From positions 1 through 64,000 of the forward strand of contig JAHLTZ010000025.1 of assembly GCA_025786725.1 (NCBI GenBank): a stretch of DNA of 64,000 nucleotides, read 5' to 3'. Made by a program: the position numbers and the translations under genes. The DNA is from Syncephalis fuscata. Lineage: Eukaryota > Zoopagomycota > Zoopagomycetes > Zoopagales > Piptocephalidaceae. Under the pieces are notes generated by a model, which had not been told where the DNA came from, searched no databases, and saw only the letters and a program-made list of their open reading frames with translations. This document shows positions 6,449 through 62,600 of the stretch, piece after piece. Within the stretch, counting starts at the first letter, position 1; each line of letters starts with the position of its first letter.

Positions 6449-6869
6449 CTTGTGTTCTACTATAAAGGACAAATGCTGTTTTTCTGAGACGAAAGTAAGA
6501 TCTTTAGGAGTTGAAGGAAGTCATTTATCTTTTTTGGACGTTTACTTCGTGGAACCAATAATATTTGTTATATTTTGGTTATTTTTAGATAATTATTTAG
6601 CAAGAAGCTATTGTATTTTGACCCTCCTTTTTCTTAATACTTTTAAATACAATCAAACACTTATTCACTACTATAACATGTATAATATTGCATCCAACAT
6701 TAACTAATTCATGTGTAATTATCAGTATAATAATATAATTAATTAGTTATCTTTATTGTTGCTTTAATGTATATATTGTCATTATGATATTAATTGTTCA
6801 AATGTCATTTATTTAGTCAGATTGGTTATAGGGAAGTGGCTGTTTAATAAACGACATTTATACTAATTA

Positions 6870-7250
6870 TATTAATCTTAATCTTACATCACAAATATGC
6901 CCAAAATGCAATATCAAAATATCAGAATATCAGAAAATAGAAGAGACCATTCAGATGCAGGAATCCATGCTGTATATAGATGCAATAACAACCAATGCGG
7001 AACGACATGGAATTGCAATCAATGGCTTCTATTAATATTCGATCAATCTTTCTACACATGGCTAGCAACAATAATAAATGGCCTTGTAAATCTCAAAGTA
7101 ATTAACTGATATGTTATATCCTTTATTTAAATCAATTTATTCGCAGCATTTTGTTAGAAAACATTATAGTTGTGTTTTGTTATGTATAATAGCATTGATT
7201 CTTATTGGAACAAATTTTACTTTGGACACTCGAAATATGGAAGCCAAAGT
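6870..7250 (+). repeat. Dispersed repeat R1, copy at 6.9 kb
   Basis: This is one of about seven copies of a repeat called R1 here. Shared blocks are CACAAATATGCCCAAAATGC, a GACCATTCAGATGCA block, TTCGATCAATCTTTCTACAC and, at the far end, AATTTTACTTTG. Other copies lie at 45.1, 48.2, 55.3 (plus), 55.6 (minus), 59.4 and 62.3 kb. This copy keeps an open frame of about 70 codons, but the zinc-knuckle-like CPKC seen in the 59.4-kb copy is lost. Its class is unknown. Confidence 0.7.
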
Positions 7251-8190
7251 AGATGCTTAGCCACTATCATTAAAGCTATCTTTTTGTTGCTAGCTATAGT
7301 GTTTGTGGATTTCAATTCGATTTACTTTAACATATACACATACTAACTCTCGCCAATATTTTATACTTTTTTGACTATCAGCTTTGCTTCATAATATTTT
7401 AAATTTTAATATAATACAAATAAAGACTTGAAATTTTACTTTACAATGAGTATCTAGTACAAATGAAAACCAAACAAAATAGTATCAAGCTATGCATGCA
7501 ATTCACGTTGAATCAAATTTACAGCGATGATCATATCAAAGTGCAATCATTCTTCTCAAAAGCTATCGCTTATCATATTCAATATAGCCGCAAGTTGCTA
7601 CAAATTTACTTTTTATTAATGTATACAAACCAGCTAACAATGAAAATCTTATCAGGGCGTAGCAAGTGCCAATGGGTACACACAGCAGTGATTTCCCGTT
7701 TATTCTAATATCTATTACATCTTTACCGAGCAAAGGATTTATAAATATCATGATATACCATTATTAAATCGTATATAACAATGATTTATTCATTTAATAG
7801 ATATTATATAGGTATATTCATATGATTGATATAAATGACTTGTGTAGAATAATTCAGCAATGGCAACCATAAGCGGCATAAGCCAGTACACCTTTGCTTC
7901 CCTGCAAAGCTGTTAAAGGAAGGAAGAAGTCACTGCAACGATTTCCACTGCGTACGAGCTGCCACGCGATAACTCGGTGCATAAATTGATGCATGCGTGT
8001 ACCTCAACCGCTTGCATACTAAGTGCAGTGCTGTTGCTGCTGCTGTTACCGCCGTTAACGTTGGACAAATGATGCGTTACCATCACACAGAATGGCTGCG
8101 TAATGTCCGTCGTTCGTTATCCTCAACGGGCCACGCAGCACTACCCTATTACGCAACGGTCTCTCTCTCTCTTTTCTATCTCCTGGCTAC
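7251..8190. other. Intergenic; upstream region of surface-protein cluster
   Basis: I see no supportable gene. The distal part (7900-8190) is less AT-rich, has a CT-rich tract just before 8180 and leads into the CCAAT/TATA promoter of the first Ser-rich gene. Open frames here lack motifs. Confidence 0.5.
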
Positions 8191-45061: not shown

Positions 45062-45422
45062 AACAATAATAATGATAATGAATTTTAACAAAAATCATAT
45101 TTAATACTTGTAATTAATTGTAACACCTTTATTAATAGATTGATTTAGATAAAAGAATGTTACATACTATCTGATTTCATTGAAACATTTGAGGTTGATT
45201 ATTGTTGTTGTTGGCCATGTGTAGAAAGATTGTTCGAATATTAATAGAAGCCATATGGTTGCAATTCCATATCATTTCACAGTCGTTGTTATACTAATAT
45301 ATCTATGCTATGTACCATTACATTTATAACAAATTTGACATTTATTGGTTGAGTTAAATAAACCGTATCATCATATAAAATATTGTATTTCATTTAATAT
45401 TATTATACAATATAATTGAAGC

Positions 45423-45870
45423 TATTACCCATTTAGTATGATTTGATGTTAAATGACTAGATTTAATAATATTTGGATTTGGATTTATTAGCTTAAGTGA
45501 GACAACGGTCCGTAGGACCTAACCGCGCATTTGCAGCATTTGTCTGCCACCCCTAGGAGAATAGACGGTTCATTTCGAACCTATCCGCGCGCAACGCAGA
45601 ACCTGCCATCTACAACTGAAAACCGTTGGTGGCTCTCCTCACGTGTTGGAATATCGACCATTTCTTCTACGGAAGGATCCCATCACGCATTTCCTGAAAA
45701 CAAGATTCGAACTAGGCGAACCAACATTTCCTACTTTAGGGAAGACGCGTTGACCGTTTAGGCCACCACGCCTCCCCCGACTAGATTTAATAATATTTAT
45801 TTTATTGAATATGGCGATGGATGGTGAGTGCCATTAAATATCCAATTATACTGATTTGAGTACTTACAAA
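45423..45870 (+). repeat. Dispersed repeat R2, interrupted by SINE
   Basis: The start (CATTTAGTATGATTTGATG, then TTAAATGACTAGATTTAATA) and the later GATGGATGGTGAGTG match R2 copies at 33.9 and 54.4 kb. The SINE at 45475-45778 sits inside it. The partner duplication copy has the same R2 uninterrupted at about 62110-62215. Confidence 0.65.
45475..45778 (-). mobile_element. tRNA-derived SINE with 20-bp target duplication
   Basis: This is a 304-bp insertion. On the minus strand the head reads GGGGGAGGCGTGGTGGCC and contains an A-box-like TGGCCTAAACGG and a B-box-like AGTTCGAATC, spaced as in a tRNA with a long variable arm. An unrelated body of about 200 bp follows, ending with a tail of ATCCAAAT-type repeats. 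The flanks are a perfect 20-bp duplication (45455-45474 and 45779-45798). The other copy of the duplication has the uninterrupted sequence, proving an insertion. It is G+C-richer than its surroundings. Confidence 0.9.
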
Positions 45871-46344
45871 AACAACACATGGATTAACATTATTATTACT
45901 ATTATTTATCTATTTGTTATATTTTAATAATGTTAAATATTATTTAGCATTTATTAATACTAATATCGAATATTGAAAATAGTACAGACTGATTTATTCA
46001 AACTAATTCAAATGTAGCTGACATAGCACTGTTTCAACAAATAACAGTTCTTAGTGTTGAAAACTGATTGGCGGTTTTATTACTATTATTTTGCTAAGAT
46101 GAAATTACAAGTTCATTATTATAAGCCTGCACAATCGAATAGGAGCAACCAATTGTAAACTTGTTAATAAAATAATGATTTTATTGATTAAAGTGCATAA
46201 ACCGGAGCATTGGCCAATATCTGGTATGTAAGTCGACTGAACGGCGTAGTTGCTAGATGCTTTTGCTTTTGACGAATATATATCTAAAGTGATCGGGATA
46301 GCGGTTTGGTTGCACTACCAATGCTAATGTCTTGAGATAATTGA

Positions 46345-46542
46345 TTATCCACAATAGTCGCGACATTCCTTATAACGACATTTGTCGTAGTCAAGCCTCC
46401 ACCAACGAGTGCAGTCTTTAATGCAAGCTTTGCAATCCGCAGGCTTAATTAAAGACTCTTTTGGTTTAGCATCCACCATGGTGGTTGTAGTGGCTATCAA
46501 AGCCACAACGACGGTGCAAACGACGGCAATAGAAAGCTTCAT
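46345..46542 (-). CDS. Secreted six-Cys peptide, copy 1
   Basis: The 65-residue precursor starts at ATG 46542. The signal peptide (MKLSIAVVCTVVVALIATT...) ends near VDAKP, and 46462-46542 is identical, base for base, to the copy at 61397. The mature part is short, basic and aromatic (TRWW; Arg/Lys-rich). Its six Cys are spaced C-x2-C-x3-C-x10-C-x4-C-x3-C, the same as the paralogue. The mature sequence otherwise differs strongly. Effector-, defence- or toxin-like peptides have this layout, but I recognise no family. The CX3C-X15-CX3C core resembles helical-hairpin peptides. It is intronless and lies within the inverted duplication. Confidence 0.8.
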   Translation of the reverse strand: MKLSIAVVCTVVVALIATTTTMVDAKPKESLIKPADCKACIKDCTRWWRLDYDKCRYKECRDYCG

Positions 46543-46834
46543 AGTGATATTAATTTGTTAAAACAAACAAATAAACCAGACAATAGATTGTGTGGTATAA
46601 AATGTATAGTAGTGTGTGTTTGGCAAGAAGTAGAGTGATGCTGATATCGCAGTTGGTTGTGTATATTTTGTGGGCTATTTAAACTTATGGTTTACTGAGA
46701 TGCTAGTATACTGTAGTATATGAGGTACACTATTGATGTGTAATATGAGCCAATAGAGCAATCCAAATAATGGTTTAAGGTACACATGTCCAGTAGATTC
46801 AGGGTGTGATAGTGTGCTTCCTAGGCTTAATTTC

Positions 46835-46898
46835 AACTTGCTCGGTCTTGATTTAACCTGTCCGGTCTTGATTTTAACTTGTCTGGTCTTTACTTTAA
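46835..46898 (-). repeat. Three 21-bp tandem repeats upstream of peptide gene
   Basis: Three units of about 21 bp (plus-strand core TGTCCGGTCTTGATTT) lie roughly 290-355 bp upstream of the peptide start. The same array is in the other copy (about 61042-61107) with one base missing in a unit. A regulatory role is possible but only inferred from position. Confidence 0.55.
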
Positions 46899-46964
46899 TC
46901 TACCAGTCATGTACACAAATAACACAACAACGTTCATAATCCAGTACATATGTGATAAAAATAG

Positions 46965-47900
46965 TCATACTAGCCTGTATTTTTTGTTATACGATTTAGC
47001 TATTTGGTAAAAGCAGGTATATTGTTTGGCTTTGTAAAGCGATAATGATGTTTTGCTGCCATTTCCACTGATCTGGTCCTCAATATCTGCATACATACAA
47101 AAATAGCACACAATACTGATACAAAACAAGTTTAATATATCAAACTGGTATTTTATACAGGTTTTACAGCCATACATGGGTCAGCCATGATTTTTAAATT
47201 ATAAATGTGTTGATTGGTACATGTATGCATTTCATTCGACACTATACCCATTTTATGGGGCAATAGTTGTTTCGAATTCACAAATGCATCGCATCCAGAC
47301 ATATCATGCCACATGTGCAACTACGATCATTCAAACGACAATTAATCTAAGTTATCTGAAGCTGCCTATACAATAAGTACTGTTTGTAGGATGATGCACC
47401 ATGAAATTCTGAGCAATGAAACATTCCAACAAGTTATTTTTATCAGTTTTTCAGCTGTAGACTAATTGCATTGGTTAAATTATACGCAATGCGATATGTG
47501 GACACTAAACTAGACGCTGTAGAAAGTCCTACCCAAATATCAGCAATTTCAAGTGCATAGTAGCTGTGGATTGTATATCAATTGGCAATCATCCAAGGCC
47601 TAAGTACTGCTTACATTTCTGAAACCAACTCTGACAACAAGTTAAGCAAGATGGAGTGTAGAAGAACAAGCCGAAGCAGAACCAATAGAAAAACAATTAG
47701 AAGCTTGAAGGTTTACTGGTTTAACCTATAGCAAACCATTGTAATTATGCTAAGCTGGACTGCGTTTATCAAAAAGTCGACTGTTGCTGATGCAACCAGA
47801 ACAGCAGCAACGTCAAATTGAGATAGCGCACAGAAAACAAAGAGTCATAAATAAAATTGAATCAATGAGTTTAGTTTGTAAATAGTTTATTATTGTCACT
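46965..47900. other. Possible decayed coding remnant inside duplication
   Basis: The minus strand near 46975-47097 keeps a 40-codon frame (DIEDQISGNGSKTSLSLY...) preceded by an intron-acceptor-like TATGCAG. The same frame is intact in the other copy (about 60851-60973). Plus-strand frames at 47440-47760 show protein-like patches broken by stops. A dead transposase or host gene is possible; no family recognised. Confidence 0.3.
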
Positions 47901-48164
47901 ATAATTTATAATCCTGGTTGTTTGTATAAATAAACATTTACAATCACGTTGTAGCTTCTTATATACTCACATGTACACGACCACCAACTAAGCCAACTAT
48001 TATAAGGCTTAATCTAATTATCTATCAGAGTAAGCAGCCAACATTATACATTATTGCAATAATAGAAAACAGATTAATTCTATTTATTGCCCATTAACAA
48101 AAGCTGTATAGCTATATTAAAATAAAACAAAACATTGGATTAAGCGAGTAATATTTATATGATC

Positions 48165-48394
48165 AAGCCATTTTTACTTTGACTCCCACATTTTGAGTTC
48201 TTAAAGTAAAATTCATTTCAATTAAAGTCGCACTATTATGCGCAACACAATTATATTGCTTCCTATTAAGTGTTGTTAATAGATTGATTTGAATAAAAAA
48301 AATGTAACATACTATCTGATTTCATTGAAACATTTGAGGCCGATTATTGTTATTGTTGGCCATGTGTAAAAAGATTGTTCGAATATTAATAAAA
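48165..48394 (-). repeat. Dispersed repeat R1 at right end of copy 1
   Basis: This contains the R1 end hairpin TTTTACTTTGACTCCC ... TTAAAGTAAAA (48171-48210) followed by TTAATAGATTGATTTGAATA. It then runs through the GGCCATGTGTAAAAAGATTG block and stops abruptly at 48394, where other R1 copies continue. The cut marks the edge of the duplicated unit. Confidence 0.7.
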
Positions 48395-48475
48395 GTGAAA
48401 CAGATGAAATAAAAAATGTAAAACAAACAATAGCTTCTATGGCTTAATTATTTTTGGTACCTTTATTGACTAATT

Positions 48476-55309: not shown

Positions 55310-55850
55310 GCATGTATATATTAACGCCACAATAACGACTGCGGAATGATATGGAATCGATCATATGACTTTTATTAATATTCAATCAATCTTCCTACAC
55401 ATGGTCAACAATGATCGGTCTTGTTTCAAAAAAAATCAAATGATATGTTACACTATTTATTTAAAAGGCTACGGTTGCGTTTACTTTGCTCCCACATCTG
55501 TCCCCAAAGCGCAATTTGTTTCAACTGAGGTTATGCTGTTGTTATACGCAACATAATTATATTACTTCCTATTAAAATACTGTTAATAGATTGATTTAGA
55601 TAAAAGAATGTAACATACTATTTGATTTCATTGAAACGTTTTAGGCCGATTATTATTGTTGTTGGTCATGTGTAGAAAGATTGATCGAATATTAATAGAA
55701 GCCATATGGTTGCGATTCCATGCCATTCTGCATTTGTTGTTATTGTATCTACGTGCAATGTAAATTATTGCACCTAAATGGTCTTTTCTATTTTCCAATA
55801 TTCCACTATTGCATTTTGGGCATATTTGTGCTGTAAGATCAGGATTAATA
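55310..55850. repeat. Inverted pair of R1 repeats
   Basis: A plus-oriented partial R1 (about 55310-55560) is followed directly by a minus-oriented R1 (about 55560-55850), giving a foldback structure. The minus copy keeps the whole R1 consensus, including the CPKC-coding end. Confidence 0.65.
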
Positions 55851-59444: not shown

Positions 59445-59800
59445 ATTATCACAAATATGCCCAAAATGCAATAGTAGAATATTAGAAACTAGAAGAGACC
59501 ATTCAGATGCAACAACAGATGTAGAATGGCCTAGAATTGCAATCATATGGTTTTTATTAATATTCAAACAATCTTTTTACACATGGCCAACAACAATAAT
59601 AATCGACCTCAAATGTTTCAATGAAATCAGATAGTATGTTACATTTTTTTATTCAAATCAATCTATTAACAACACTTAATAGGAAGCAATATAATTGTGT
59701 TGCGCATAATAGTGCGACTTAATTGAAATGAATTTTACTTTAAGAACTCAAAATGTGGGAGTCAAAGTAAAAATGGCTTGATCATATAAATATTACTCGC
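59445..59800 (+). repeat. Dispersed repeat R1 at left edge of copy 2
   Basis: This is the best-preserved R1. Its translated start reads ICPKCNSRILETRRDHSD and later IIWFLLIFKQSFYTWPTT. It ends in the TTTTACTTTAAG ... CAAAGTAAAAATGG hairpin. The duplicated unit begins inside it at about 59552, so R1 sequence continues outward here but not in copy 1. Confidence 0.7.
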
Positions 59801-62503
59801 TTAATCCAATGTTTTGTTTTATTTTAATATAGCTATACAGCTTTTGTTAATGGGCAATAAATAGAATTAATCTGTTTTCTATTATTGCAATAATGTATAA
59901 TGTTGGCTGCTTACTCTGATAGATAATTAGATTAAGCCTTATAATAGTTGGCTTAGTTGGTGGTCGTGTACATGTGAGTATATAAGAAGCTACAACGTGA
60001 TTGTAAATGTTTATTTATACAAACAACCAGGATTATAAATTATAGTGACAATAATAAACTATTTACAAACTAAACTCATTGATTCAATTTTATTTATGAC
60101 TCTTTGTTTTCTGTGCGCTATCTCAATTTGACGTTGCTGCTGTTCTGGTTGCATCAGCAACAGTCGACTTTTGATAAACGCAGTCCAGCTTAGCATAATT
60201 ACAATGGTTTGCTATAGGTTAAACCAGTAAACCTTCAAGCTTCTAATTGTTTTCTATTGGTTCTGCTTCGGCTTGTTCTTCTACACTCCATCTTGCTTAA
60301 CTTGTTGTCAGAGTTGGTTTCAGAAATGTAAGCAGTACTTAGGCCTTGGATGATTGCCAATTGATATACAATCCACAGCTACTATGCACTTGAAATTGCT
60401 GATATTTGGGTAGGACTTTCTACAGCGTCTAGTTTAGTGTCCACATATCGCATTGCGTATAATTTAACCAATGCAATTAGTCTACAGCTGAAAAACTGAT
60501 AAAAATAACTTGTTGGAATGTTTCATTGCTCAGAATTTCATGGTGCATCATCCTACAAACAGTACTTATTGTATAGGCAGCTTCAGATAACTTAGATTAA
60601 CGTCGTTTGAATGATCGTAGTTGCACATGTGGCATGATATGTCTGGATGCGATGCATTTGTGAATTCGAAACAACTATTGCCCCAAAAATGGGTATAGTG
60701 TCGAATGAAATGCATACATGTACCAATCAACACATTTATAATTTAAAAATCATGGCTGACCCATGTATGGCTGTAAAACCTGTATAAAATACCAGTTTGA
60801 TATATTAAACTTGTTTTGTATCAGTATTGTTGCTATTTTTGTATGTATGCAGATATTGAGGACCAGATCAGTGGAAATGGCAGCAAAACATCATTATCGC
60901 TTTACAAAGCCAAACAATATACCTGCTTTTACCAAATAGCTAAATCGTATAACAAAAAATACAGGCTAGTATGACTATTTTTATCACATATGTACTGGAT
61001 TATGAACGTTGTTATGTTATTTGTGTACATGACTGGTAGATTAAAGTAAAAGACCAGACAAGTTAAAATCAAGACCGGACAGGTTAAATCAAGACGAACA
61101 AGTTGAAATTAAGCCTAGGAAGCACACTATCACACCCTGAATCTACTGGACATGTGTACCTTAAACCATTATTTGGATTGCTCTATTGGCTCATATTACA
61201 CATCAATAGTGTACCTCATATACTACAGTATACTAGCATCTCAGTAAACCATAAGTTTAAATAGCCCACAAAATATACACGACCAACTGCGATATCATCA
61301 TCACTCTACTTCTTGCCAAACACACACTACTATACATTTTATATCACACACTCTATTGCCTGCTCTATTTGTTTGTTTTAACAAATTAATATCACTATGA
61401 AGCTTTCTATTGCCGTCGTTTGCACCGTCGTTGTGGCTTTGATAGCCACTACAACCACCATGGTGGATGCTAAACCAACCGCGGAACATGGTGCTCCAGC
61501 TCTAGCTCATTATAGTCCTGCGGATTGCAGGTCTTGCGTTGATATATGCGCTCGTTGGCGGTGGGACAAACGCAGCAAATGTCGTAAAGTGGAATGTAGC
61601 GAATGGTGTGAAAAATAAATGATTTCAAGACATTAGCATTGGTAGTGCAACCAAACCGCTATCCCGATCACTTTAGATATATATTCGTCAAAAGCAAAAG
61701 CATCTAGCAACTACGCCGTTCAGTCGACTTACATACCAGATATTGGCCAATGCTCCGGTTTATGCACTTTAATCAATAAAATTATTATTTTATTAACAAG
61801 TTTACAATTGGTTGCTCCTATTCGATTGTGCAGGCTTATAATAATGAACTTGTAATTCCATTTTAACAAAATAATAGTAATAAAACTGCCAATTAGTTTT
61901 CAACACTAAGAACTGTTGTTTGTTGAAACAGTGCTATGTCAGCTACATTTGAATTAGTTTGAATGAATCAGTCTGTACTATTTTCAATATTCGATATTAG
62001 TATTAATAAATGCTAAACAGTATTTAACATTATTAAAATATAACAAATAGATAAATAATAGTAATAATAATGTTAATCCATGTGTTGTTTTTGTAAGTAC
62101 TCAAATCAGTATAATTGGATATTTAATGGCACTCACCATCCATCGCCATATTCAATAAAATAAATATTATTAAATCTAGTCATTTAACATCAAATCATAC
62201 TAAATGGGTAATAGCTTCAATTATATTGTATAATAATGTTAAATGACATACAATATTTTATATGATGATACGGTTTATTTAACTCAACCAATAAATGTCA
62301 AATTGTTATAAATGTAATGGTACATAGCATGGATATATTAGTATAACAACGACTGTGAAATGATATGGAATTGCAACCATATGGCTTCTATTAATATTCG
62401 AACAATCTTTCTACACATGGCCAACAACAACAATAATCAACCTCAAATGTTTCAATGAAATCAGATAGTATGTTACATTCTTTTATCTAAATCAATCTAT
62501 TAA
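59552..62503 (-). repeat. Inverted duplication, copy 2
   Basis: This is the 2.95-kb partner of 45132-48394, in opposite orientation and separated by about 11 kb containing TRP4, the membrane protein, POP7 and PGM. It has no SINE and keeps complete R1 repeats across both edges, so it is probably the ancestral copy. Non-coding parts are nearly identical to copy 1 by eye. Confidence 0.9.
61397..61618 (+). CDS. Secreted six-Cys peptide, copy 2
   Basis: The 73-residue precursor has a signal peptide and first mature residues (to ...VDAKP, 61397-61477) identical to the 46.5-kb copy. It then has a longer, Ala/His-rich linker (TAEHGAPALAHYS). The six Cys have the same C-x2-C-x3-C-x10-C-x4-C-x3-C spacing, with the same TGC/TGT choice at each Cys. 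All other differences in the aligned Cys domain (18 of 32 codons) change the amino acid. About 15 bp after the stop the two copies become near-identical again. The core is basic and Trp-rich. Secretion is expected; target and activity are unknown. Confidence 0.85.
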   Translation: MKLSIAVVCTVVVALIATTTTMVDAKPTAEHGAPALAHYSPADCRSCVDICARWRWDKRSKCRKVECSEWCEK

Positions 62504-62600
62504 CAATATTTTAATAGGAAGCAATATAATTATGTTGTACATAGCAGCATGCCTTCAATTGGAACGAATTTTACTTTGAGGGCTTAAAATTGGGATCAAA
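62335..62600 (+). repeat. Dispersed repeat R1 at right edge of copy 2
   Basis: The blocks ATATGGCTTCTATTAATATTC and TCAGATAGTATGTTACATTC match other R1 copies. It ends with AATTTTACTTTGAGGGC and runs into the 3' end of the truncated P-loop gene at about 62590. Confidence 0.65.

Follow-up and report, generated by a model that had tools for sequence, protein, structure and literature searches.

Among the closest described systems, conotoxin precursors combine a conserved signal with a hypervariable, cysteine-rich mature peptide, and their 5′UTR/signal and 3′UTR sequences are conserved enough for primers (PMC3862624). In exon 2 of conotoxin genes, dN and dS are reported to be 2–8 fold above those of exon 1 (PMC3862624), and the cysteine codons are site-specific, the cause of which is debated (PMC3823881). 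The micro-exon genes (MEGs) of Schistosoma encode secreted variable proteins with a conserved signal peptide, spread over many short exons whose lengths are mostly divisible by three; these exons are given as 6–81 bp (3–81 in the abstract), mostly 15 bp, with introns of 0.1–5 kb (PMC10526429). The bicycle genes of aphids, which are fast-evolving putative effectors, have ~17 exons on average, larger than 3 nt, and nearly all of the small internal ones start at codon position 2 (PMC9168663). The HYP effectors of cyst nematodes carry a hypervariable central domain that varies by motif arrangement and number at single-gene loci (PMC11228951). Single 1-nt exons have been described in plants, where intronless relatives were ascribed to RT-mediated intron loss (PMC8831610).

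The genes described here are from Syncephalis fuscata, of the Zoopagales (Zoopagomycota); Piptocephalis and Syncephalis are mycoparasites (review PMC10386755). We analyzed a window of 64,000 nt (the whole stretch of DNA, positions 1 to 64,000 of contig JAHLTZ010000025.1, called C168 below) and searched the S. fuscata genome (28.95 Mb, 299 contigs). Two copies in the window, A and B (Table 1), had been predicted from the letters alone to be recent duplicates with a frozen signal and a mature region changed only non-synonymously, and both open reading frames were confirmed. Like conotoxin superfamilies, the family of A and B has a frozen leader and UTRs and a hypervariable Cys-rich mature part in which the cysteines are conserved. 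Unlike conotoxins, it is fungal, its Cys codons are identical in close pairs alone and approach saturation across the family, and it has sister genes with putative 3-nt micro-exons, while the conotoxin genes of the accounts cited mostly have three exons. Homology to conotoxins was not detected with Pfam, in the protein collection searched by shared 5-residue words, or in a PDB profile search. The many very short in-frame exons of MEGs recur, as far as can be read from sequence, in the sister genes, but not in A and B themselves, which are uninterrupted. Unlike those of Schistosoma, the putative fungal exons are almost all of exactly 3 nt (136/143), the repeat introns are fairly uniform at ~78 nt, the predicted products are small peptides with Cys, and there are sisters that lack introns. 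The fungal micro-exons start at codon position 2 like the small exons of aphid bicycle genes, but they are 3 nt long and their introns belong to one tandem repeat family. No non-Syncephalis protein, and so no MEG or bicycle homolog, was among the 13 matches of the search via shared 5-residue words. Unlike HYP effectors, the fungal family varies by residue replacement among ~200 copies.

Table 1. Mapped features of copies A and B (window positions) and of the seven complete sister genes (contig:position), the latter read from sequence only
Feature	Position	Strand	Basis
Copy A, intronless gene, 65 aa	46345..46542	-	ORF
Copy A architecture: leader, linker, six-Cys mature domain CxxCxxxCx10CxxxxCxxxC	46345..46542	-	ORF
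Copy A leader (signal) segment	46462..46542	-	81 bp identical to copy B
Copy A linker, hypervariable mature region and stop	46345..46461	-	A/B alignment
Copy B, intronless gene, 73 aa, leader as A, mature region unlike A	61397..61618	+	ORF
Copy B leader segment	61397..61477	+	A/B alignment
Copy B linker, hypervariable mature region and stop	61478..61618	+	A/B alignment
Duplicated unit with copy A, inverted relative to the B unit	45779..48394	-	blastn
Duplicated unit with copy B	59552..62181	+	blastn
Conserved 3′UTR anchor of A, TAGCATTGGTAGTGCAACCAAACC	46303..46326	-	90 genome matches, ≤3 mismatches, control 0
Conserved 3′UTR anchor of B	61634..61657	+	24-mer genome search
TATA-like TTTAAATA of A	46676..46683	-	read in sequence; putative function
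TATA-like TTTAAATA of B	61256..61263	+	read in sequence; putative function
AATAAA polyadenylation-like signal of A	46180..46185	-	read in sequence; putative function
AATAAA polyadenylation-like signal of B	61775..61780	+	read in sequence; putative function
Putative micro-exon gene (L068+L113+L098)	C249:42121
Putative micro-exon gene (L064+L112+L100)	C225:225479
Putative micro-exon gene (L115)	C168:297257
Putative micro-exon gene (L065)
Putative micro-exon gene (L033+L111)
Putative micro-exon gene (L103+L114)
Putative micro-exon gene (L071)

The units of A and B lie 15 kb apart and are 96.6% identical over 2641 columns, gene included (blastn). The contrast inside the duplication was borne out: the signal segment is identical (0/81 mismatches), 18/32 codons of the Cys domain differ, every one non-synonymously, the six mature Cys codons are identical, the linkers differ in length by 21 nt, and the differences end ~15 bp past the stop codon. 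The absence of silent change in the 14 unchanged codons (13 plus one Trp) holds as well, with 0 silent changes, but this is a statement about residue-keeping codons. The non-coding DNA had been called nearly identical, and the flanks are indeed ~99% identical, but unevenly so, with 7/150 mismatches just before the ATG (−150 to 0) as against 3/1,617 from −1800 to −150 (1,650 columns); downstream there are 10/546. In 100-column steps, 16 upstream steps have 0 or 1 mismatch each, the pre-leader step 7, the leader step 0, the mature step 32 plus the 21-nt gap and the next step 13, followed by 0, 4, 4, and 2. The changed codons carry 4 bases beyond the minimum needed, compared with 12.1 expected with random codons, and NG86 gave pS 0.18 and pN 0.40 for the linker and mature part. 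Several other elements were observed in the window. Neighboring ORFs, which resemble eukaryotic genes split by introns, have Pfam domains of glycosyl transferase family 3, adaptin, and phosphoglucomutase, and an imperfect palindrome of ~480 bp (88%) lies at 531–1009. A repeat family of ~220–390 bp borders each duplicated unit on either side and recurs at other sites (59511–59766, 62345–62600, 48178–48395, 45129–45474, 55502–55743, 6864–7251); it is a possible duplication substrate or mobile element.

A genome-wide search for paralogs showed that A and B are one instance of a family-wide pattern. The first 30 nt of the leader have 198 genome matches (≤3 mismatches, both haplotypes counted; control 0), the 24-mer of the 3′UTR is likewise repeated (Table 1), and two protein-level searches of the genome gave at least 150 scored places each. 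In the protein collection, a search confined to relatives sharing 5-residue words returned 13 homologs at E ≤ 0.1, all hypothetical proteins of S. fuscata. The 82 distinct leader copies examined comprise 28 of class I, 31 in which the leader is followed by a GTATGT donor, 4 weak matches, and 19 others, of which L063 and L074 at least also look intron-split. Class I was defined strictly as uninterrupted, with at least four Cys and the 3′UTR anchor close behind, which excluded 8 of 36 candidates. Over the 378 pairs of class I members, median identity is only 0.50 in the mature part, compared with 0.88 in the leader, 0.80 in the 250 nt upstream, and 0.81 in 180 nt of 3′UTR. After removal of 7 near-identical or allelic members, conservation of the 3′UTR exceeds that of the mature part in 209/210 pairs of the 21 non-redundant intronless members, and that of both flanks does so in 194/210. 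A and B are each other's closest relatives in the mature part among these 21 (identity 0.66).

The signal peptide of the family was judged by eye. A dibasic RR or KR within residues 27–45 is present in 16/21 members, where it is probably a Kex2-type cleavage site to judge from the sequence; A and B have none. A TATA-like motif is found upstream in 17/21 members and AATAAA behind the stop codon in 19/21. The leader Cys codon is TGC in 28/28 class I members, and the minority codon at the six mature Cys positions was counted in 5/26, 3/28, 9/28, 11/28, 9/28, and 11/24. Pfam gave no match above cut-off for A or B (weak Vanabin-2, E 0.017). The spacing CxxxC...CxxxC is that of the α-hairpinins, or vicilin-buried peptides; in α-hairpinins, disulfides between the two motifs link two helices. 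The Cys spacing of the family fits this CxxxC/CxxxC pattern, and the only two matches of the PDB profile search were plant vicilin peptides, neither significant (E 0.5 and 0.57). Family-type leaders were also seen on other precursors: with another mature type, GPIPPFGACKCRDDDGYCTSC, in L079 (C278), L029 (C24), and L030 (C157), and on longer Cys-free precursors with dibasic sites in L067 (C1) and L043 (C168:77.7 kb). Several of the public models with the family leader (among P0004–P0008) end in an apparent translated repeat intron or an early stop, and their annotated peptides are probably wrong.

The more surprising result is the architecture of the sister genes, which lie outside the window, carry the family leader and 3′UTR, and seem to have their mature peptide coded by 3-nt micro-exons. 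We parsed 34 intron-class genes, of which 7 were complete (Table 1). In the complete genes the last base of the leader exon is the first of a codon and GTATGT comes next, the putative micro-exons begin at codon position 2, and the repeat unit of ~80 nt is typically ...TAATAG, exactly 3 nt, GTAAGT, a pattern with 1,593 genome matches (≤3 mismatches; control 0). Counted in 32 genes, most of them partial, and with no length constraint, the AG nearest to each of 272 donors lies 3 nt before it in 238 cases, 6 nt before it in 17, 1 nt in 13, and 2 nt in 1, and the remaining 3 donors have no AG in the preceding 15 nt; in a control with randomly chosen intron positions, 240/272 lacked an AG over this distance. 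When a multiple of three was preferred, 136 of the 143 micro-exons in the complete genes were of 3 nt and 7 of 6 nt, and without this constraint 131 were of 3 nt, 6 of 6 nt, five of 1 nt, and one of 2 nt. Most introns of the seven genes (139/150) are 70–82 nt long, and those of 132–492 nt may hide unrecognized units or insertions. Insertions of ~410 nt within ~80-nt introns were observed in L034 before the sixth micro-exon (C96) and in C13:178413 after base 771, and are possibly a mobile element.

Each complete sister gene has 6–31 putative micro-exons. Conceptual splicing of the 31 micro-exons at C249:42121 yields LVRRGDPAQCAACVENCKRRTGLDWGKCRNGSCRTIC, with six Cys in exactly the spacing of copy A; this framework was obtained in 0/20,000 trials with shuffled micro-exon order and in 0/20,000 with random 3-mers of the gene, and that of C225:225479 likewise never appeared. 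In the case of L065, the framework tested was absent from the observed five-Cys peptide too. The predicted peptides of C225:225479, C24 (L065), and C168:297257 have six, five, and four Cys, respectively, those of C13:178413 and C267:657307 have two each, and that of C13:7420 has none. The public partial model BDF19DRAFT_464749 (P0012) has a 33-nt exon and what we read as a 9-nt exon at L091, and it ends in an apparent intron; we regard it as weak and mixed support for micro-exons. Five comparisons of intron-class (class II) pairs were made: L059/C225 (introns 95% identical, 4/10 micro-exons differ), L034/C249 (92%, 5/12, all after a unit missed by the parser), L052/C249 (97%, 2/11), L096/L081 (94%, 2/4), and L051/L052 (99.8%, 0/7). 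Micro-exons outpacing their own introns were not seen in these five. The layout of nearly one residue per exon appears more extreme than any that we found described in the PMC literature, a collection outside which most subscription papers lie, and within it we found no description of uniform 3-nt exon arrays or of this peptide family.

A burst of change in the mature part was found in three close relations, A/B, L025/L047 (neighbors 2.8 kb apart on C228, units 97.7% identical), and L054/L046 (93.9% identical, an allele or recent paralog). The changed linker and mature codons number 24, 13, and 18, respectively, and 39 of these 55 differ at 2 or 3 bases, some of them adjoining alignment gaps. 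Silent changes in residue-keeping codons number 0/13, 0/28, and 0/17 (0/58 in total), where random codons would give 6.0, 11.7, and 7.8. We fitted a codon mixture model to the three pairs with the silent distance d on a grid. The pooled d peaks at 0.02, near the flank values, indicating that the change is young and the excess non-synonymous; relative to this peak, lnL falls by 2.1 at d 0.12, 3.9 at 0.2, and 12.3 at 0.5. For A/B alone, d up to ~0.3 is allowed, with ω of ~4; the changed codons require ω of ~4 or more even at the slowest clock that this pair allows. For A/B the flank clock demands an ω of ~63 at d 0.02, or ~36 at the fitted value of 0.034, and the other two pairs need 133–256. 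A multi-nucleotide-mutation codon model was tried in place of the point mixture model and was not clearly better, with lnL differences <1.5 either way. Not all of the nine close relations show such a burst: the mature parts of L055/L056 and of L075/L076 are free of differences, L022/L023 share 99.4% identity overall, and no more than two mature residues distinguish the third copy, C, from its allele or vary in the L016/L019 set. For four other pairs the best-fitting d is from 0.12 to 1.0.

In more distant pairs the mature parts seem older than the flanks, as silent Cys codons are near saturation there. The TGT/TGC mismatch is 0.39–0.45 family-wide, where the 3′UTR diverges by 12–30% on average, and is already 0.39 at 12% 3′UTR divergence; in the four older bins, silent mismatch is ~0.15–0.21 in the leader vs 0.39–0.46 in the mature part.

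The assembly retains both haplotypes in this region, since C22 matches C168 45779–69511 at 98.8% and carries alleles of A and B, and C169 matches C168 94254–104000 at 98.9% and carries an allele of C, which lies at C168:91934 in a unit around C168:91286–93999. The second-haplotype stretches themselves, C22 1885–25584 (window region) and C169 3288–13005 (C168:94–104 kb), are 98.8–98.9% identical to C168. A and C share one mature type, which recurs in the allele of A at C22:2454, and B shares the other with its allele at C22:17492 (98%). In the allele of B on C22 we saw single-base indels and a disrupted reading frame; we dropped the reading of it as a pseudogene as uncertain, C22 being a noisy contig with 73 gap openings in 23.8 kb. 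Between −1800 and −150, A differs from B at 3/1,617 positions, from its own allele at 21/1,623, and from C at 41/1,622, and at 5 upstream sites A sides with B and with B's allele against the remaining three copies, compared with 2 at which it sides with its own allele. As the two units are present in each haplotype, this pattern marks non-allelic gene conversion. A and its own allele, with a flank divergence of ~1%, differ in three linker or mature codons, by 2, 3, and 3 nt.

Such recombination or conversion of flanks between copies is family-wide, because the similarities of the 5′ and 3′ flanks are uncorrelated among the 21 members (Mantel r = 0.11, p = 0.26). The decoupling of flanks from mature parts is incomplete, because mature similarity correlates with that of the leader and of the 3′UTR (r 0.43 each, p 0.001 and 0.0005). 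No difference separates the 180-nt 3′UTRs of L075 and L076_2082. At L076 (C212:181000–184100), the neighboring members P0002/P0003 are nearly identical downstream and unlike in their upstream and mature parts, and these two C212 neighbors align only from ~50 bp before the ATG.

We consider that the A/B contrast reflects diversifying selection on the mature part together with gene conversion of the flanks, with a probability of about 0.55. A and B are intronless members of a large family of this mycoparasite, with a precursor made of a frozen leader, a linker, and a small, presumably secreted and processed, disulfide-rich peptide. The unit would have been duplicated recently on C168, giving A, B, and C; strong diversifying selection since then would have replaced most loop residues in one lineage, the cysteines staying in place, and gene conversion among the copies would hold promoter, leader, and 3′UTR alike, which would make the contrast sharper than substitution alone would give. 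The diversifying selection originally proposed is supported by a pooled silent clock close to that of the flanks and ω of ~4 or more. Descent of A and B in place is suggested because their closest mature relatives are mutual and the only genome DNA similar to the mature part of B is B's allele, A, C, and the alleles of these. Multi-base changes cluster by codon, as selection on residues predicts: over five pairs, phase 0 has 47 units with two or more changes and the other phases have 33 each. The ω values on the flank clock, ~63 and 133–256, are hard to explain by single substitutions alone. Also weighing against this reading are the 2- and 3-nt codon changes that separate A from its own allele, the close relations that show no burst, the near-saturated silent Cys codons of distant pairs, and the incomplete decoupling of mature parts from flanks. 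A and B themselves probably descend from micro-exon genes, all of whose introns would have been lost at once via cDNA.

The micro-exon sister genes lead us to rank second, as a possible but distinctly less probable explanation, that the spliced transcript of a sister gene is reverse transcribed and its cDNA recombines with an intronless locus via the shared leader and 3′UTR, so that the mature segment is exchanged in a single step and the flanks stay as they were. Leader and 3′UTR are common to both classes, and L028 and L033, which lie 20 kb apart on C13, are a pair in point. L033 has 14 recognized micro-exons and 15 introns; L028 is intronless and, with two Cys, outside strict class I. Over 1,600 columns of upstream and leader sequence the two share 98.06% identity, and they are nearly identical in the 3′UTR stretch compared, but their mature parts differ. 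That L028 lacks every intron while its flanks are intact points to a cDNA origin, and the difference of its mature part from spliced L033 suggests a cDNA that derived from a different member or evolved rapidly after insertion; we infer a similar origin for A and B. The changed codons of L054/L046 also carry extra bases at the random rate (8 vs 7.4 expected). A/B, in contrast, retain 13 residue-keeping codons with 0 silent changes, so that a donor must be a close relative, and the changes follow the codon frame rather than the micro-exon frame, an observation that bears on exchange of single micro-exons and not on replacement by whole cDNA. Class I changes as swaps of single micro-exons (phase 1) were considered on their own and were unsupported, the changes clustering in codon phase. 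Of the donor cassettes that had been proposed, no contiguous one was found in the assembly by DNA similarity, although a donor spread over micro-exons would be invisible to contiguous searches and its cDNA would leave none. Similarity searches of the own genome with the mature DNA of L047 and L046 likewise returned only these genes, alleles, tandem neighbors, and same-cluster copies. Two exact three-exon patterns searched genome-wide for A/B-like micro-exon donors had one match each: 1.3 kb on C8 that splices in silico to an unlike peptide, and C251:71198 within the intron-class gene L085.

An old split of the mature parts, with flanks and leader homogenized later by conversion, was the refuting alternative named in the original prediction, and half of it stands, since conversion is family-wide. 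Near-saturated silent Cys codons in most pairs with 3′UTRs differing by 12–30%, the lower silent mismatch of leader than of mature part in the four older bins, and the four pairs fitting d 0.12 to 1.0 all agree with it, as does the d of ~0.3 allowed by A/B alone. For the three bursts we nevertheless think it improbable, given 0/58 silent changes and the loss of 3.9 lnL at d 0.2 compared with 0.02. The targeted hypermutation once suggested for the mature segment is far less probable still: the sharp borders at the leader and ~15 bp past the stop codon would suit it, as would the codons in which A and its own allele differ by several nucleotides, but the Cys codons are intact, and mature silent sites of the three close pairs can exceed the flanks by ~6-fold at most (d ~0.12 vs 0.02). 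A mutator blind to coding effect is unsupported, given the want of silent change in these pairs and a d of 0.12 being already 2.1 lnL worse. Hardly any weight falls on an assembly or sequencing artefact. The noise of the second-allele contig C22 would speak for one, but each mature type recurs on at least two contigs, and a like contrast is seen at unrelated loci.

Going back to selection with flank conversion as the preferred reading, we can also envisage a two-stage engine, which we put forward only tentatively and think unlikely on balance. A separate 3-nt exon for nearly every residue, within a tandem array of ~80-nt introns, would let residues be added, dropped, or changed without frameshift, and spliced cDNAs of such micro-exon genes, written into intronless loci by way of the common leader and 3′UTR, would give pairs like A/B.

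The life style of the fungus, the likely secretion, and the hypervariability make it most likely that the peptides are effectors or toxins against host fungi or competitors. The puzzle of venom genes, in which a frozen leader and UTR accompany a racing mature part with preserved Cys codons, has a counterpart in a 29-Mb fungal assembly, where the Cys codons are kept in close pairs. Selection, conversion, cDNA rewriting, and hypermutation are separable here because alleles, tandem neighbors, and ~200 leader copies are available in one assembly. Should RNA data bear out the sister genes, codon-length exons would add up to a whole peptide, with nearly one residue per exon, and how the spliceosome defines dozens of consecutive 3-nt exons would become testable. 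Gene finders could then miss a secretome of this kind, as may be seen from 13 family proteins against 198 leader matches in both haplotypes.
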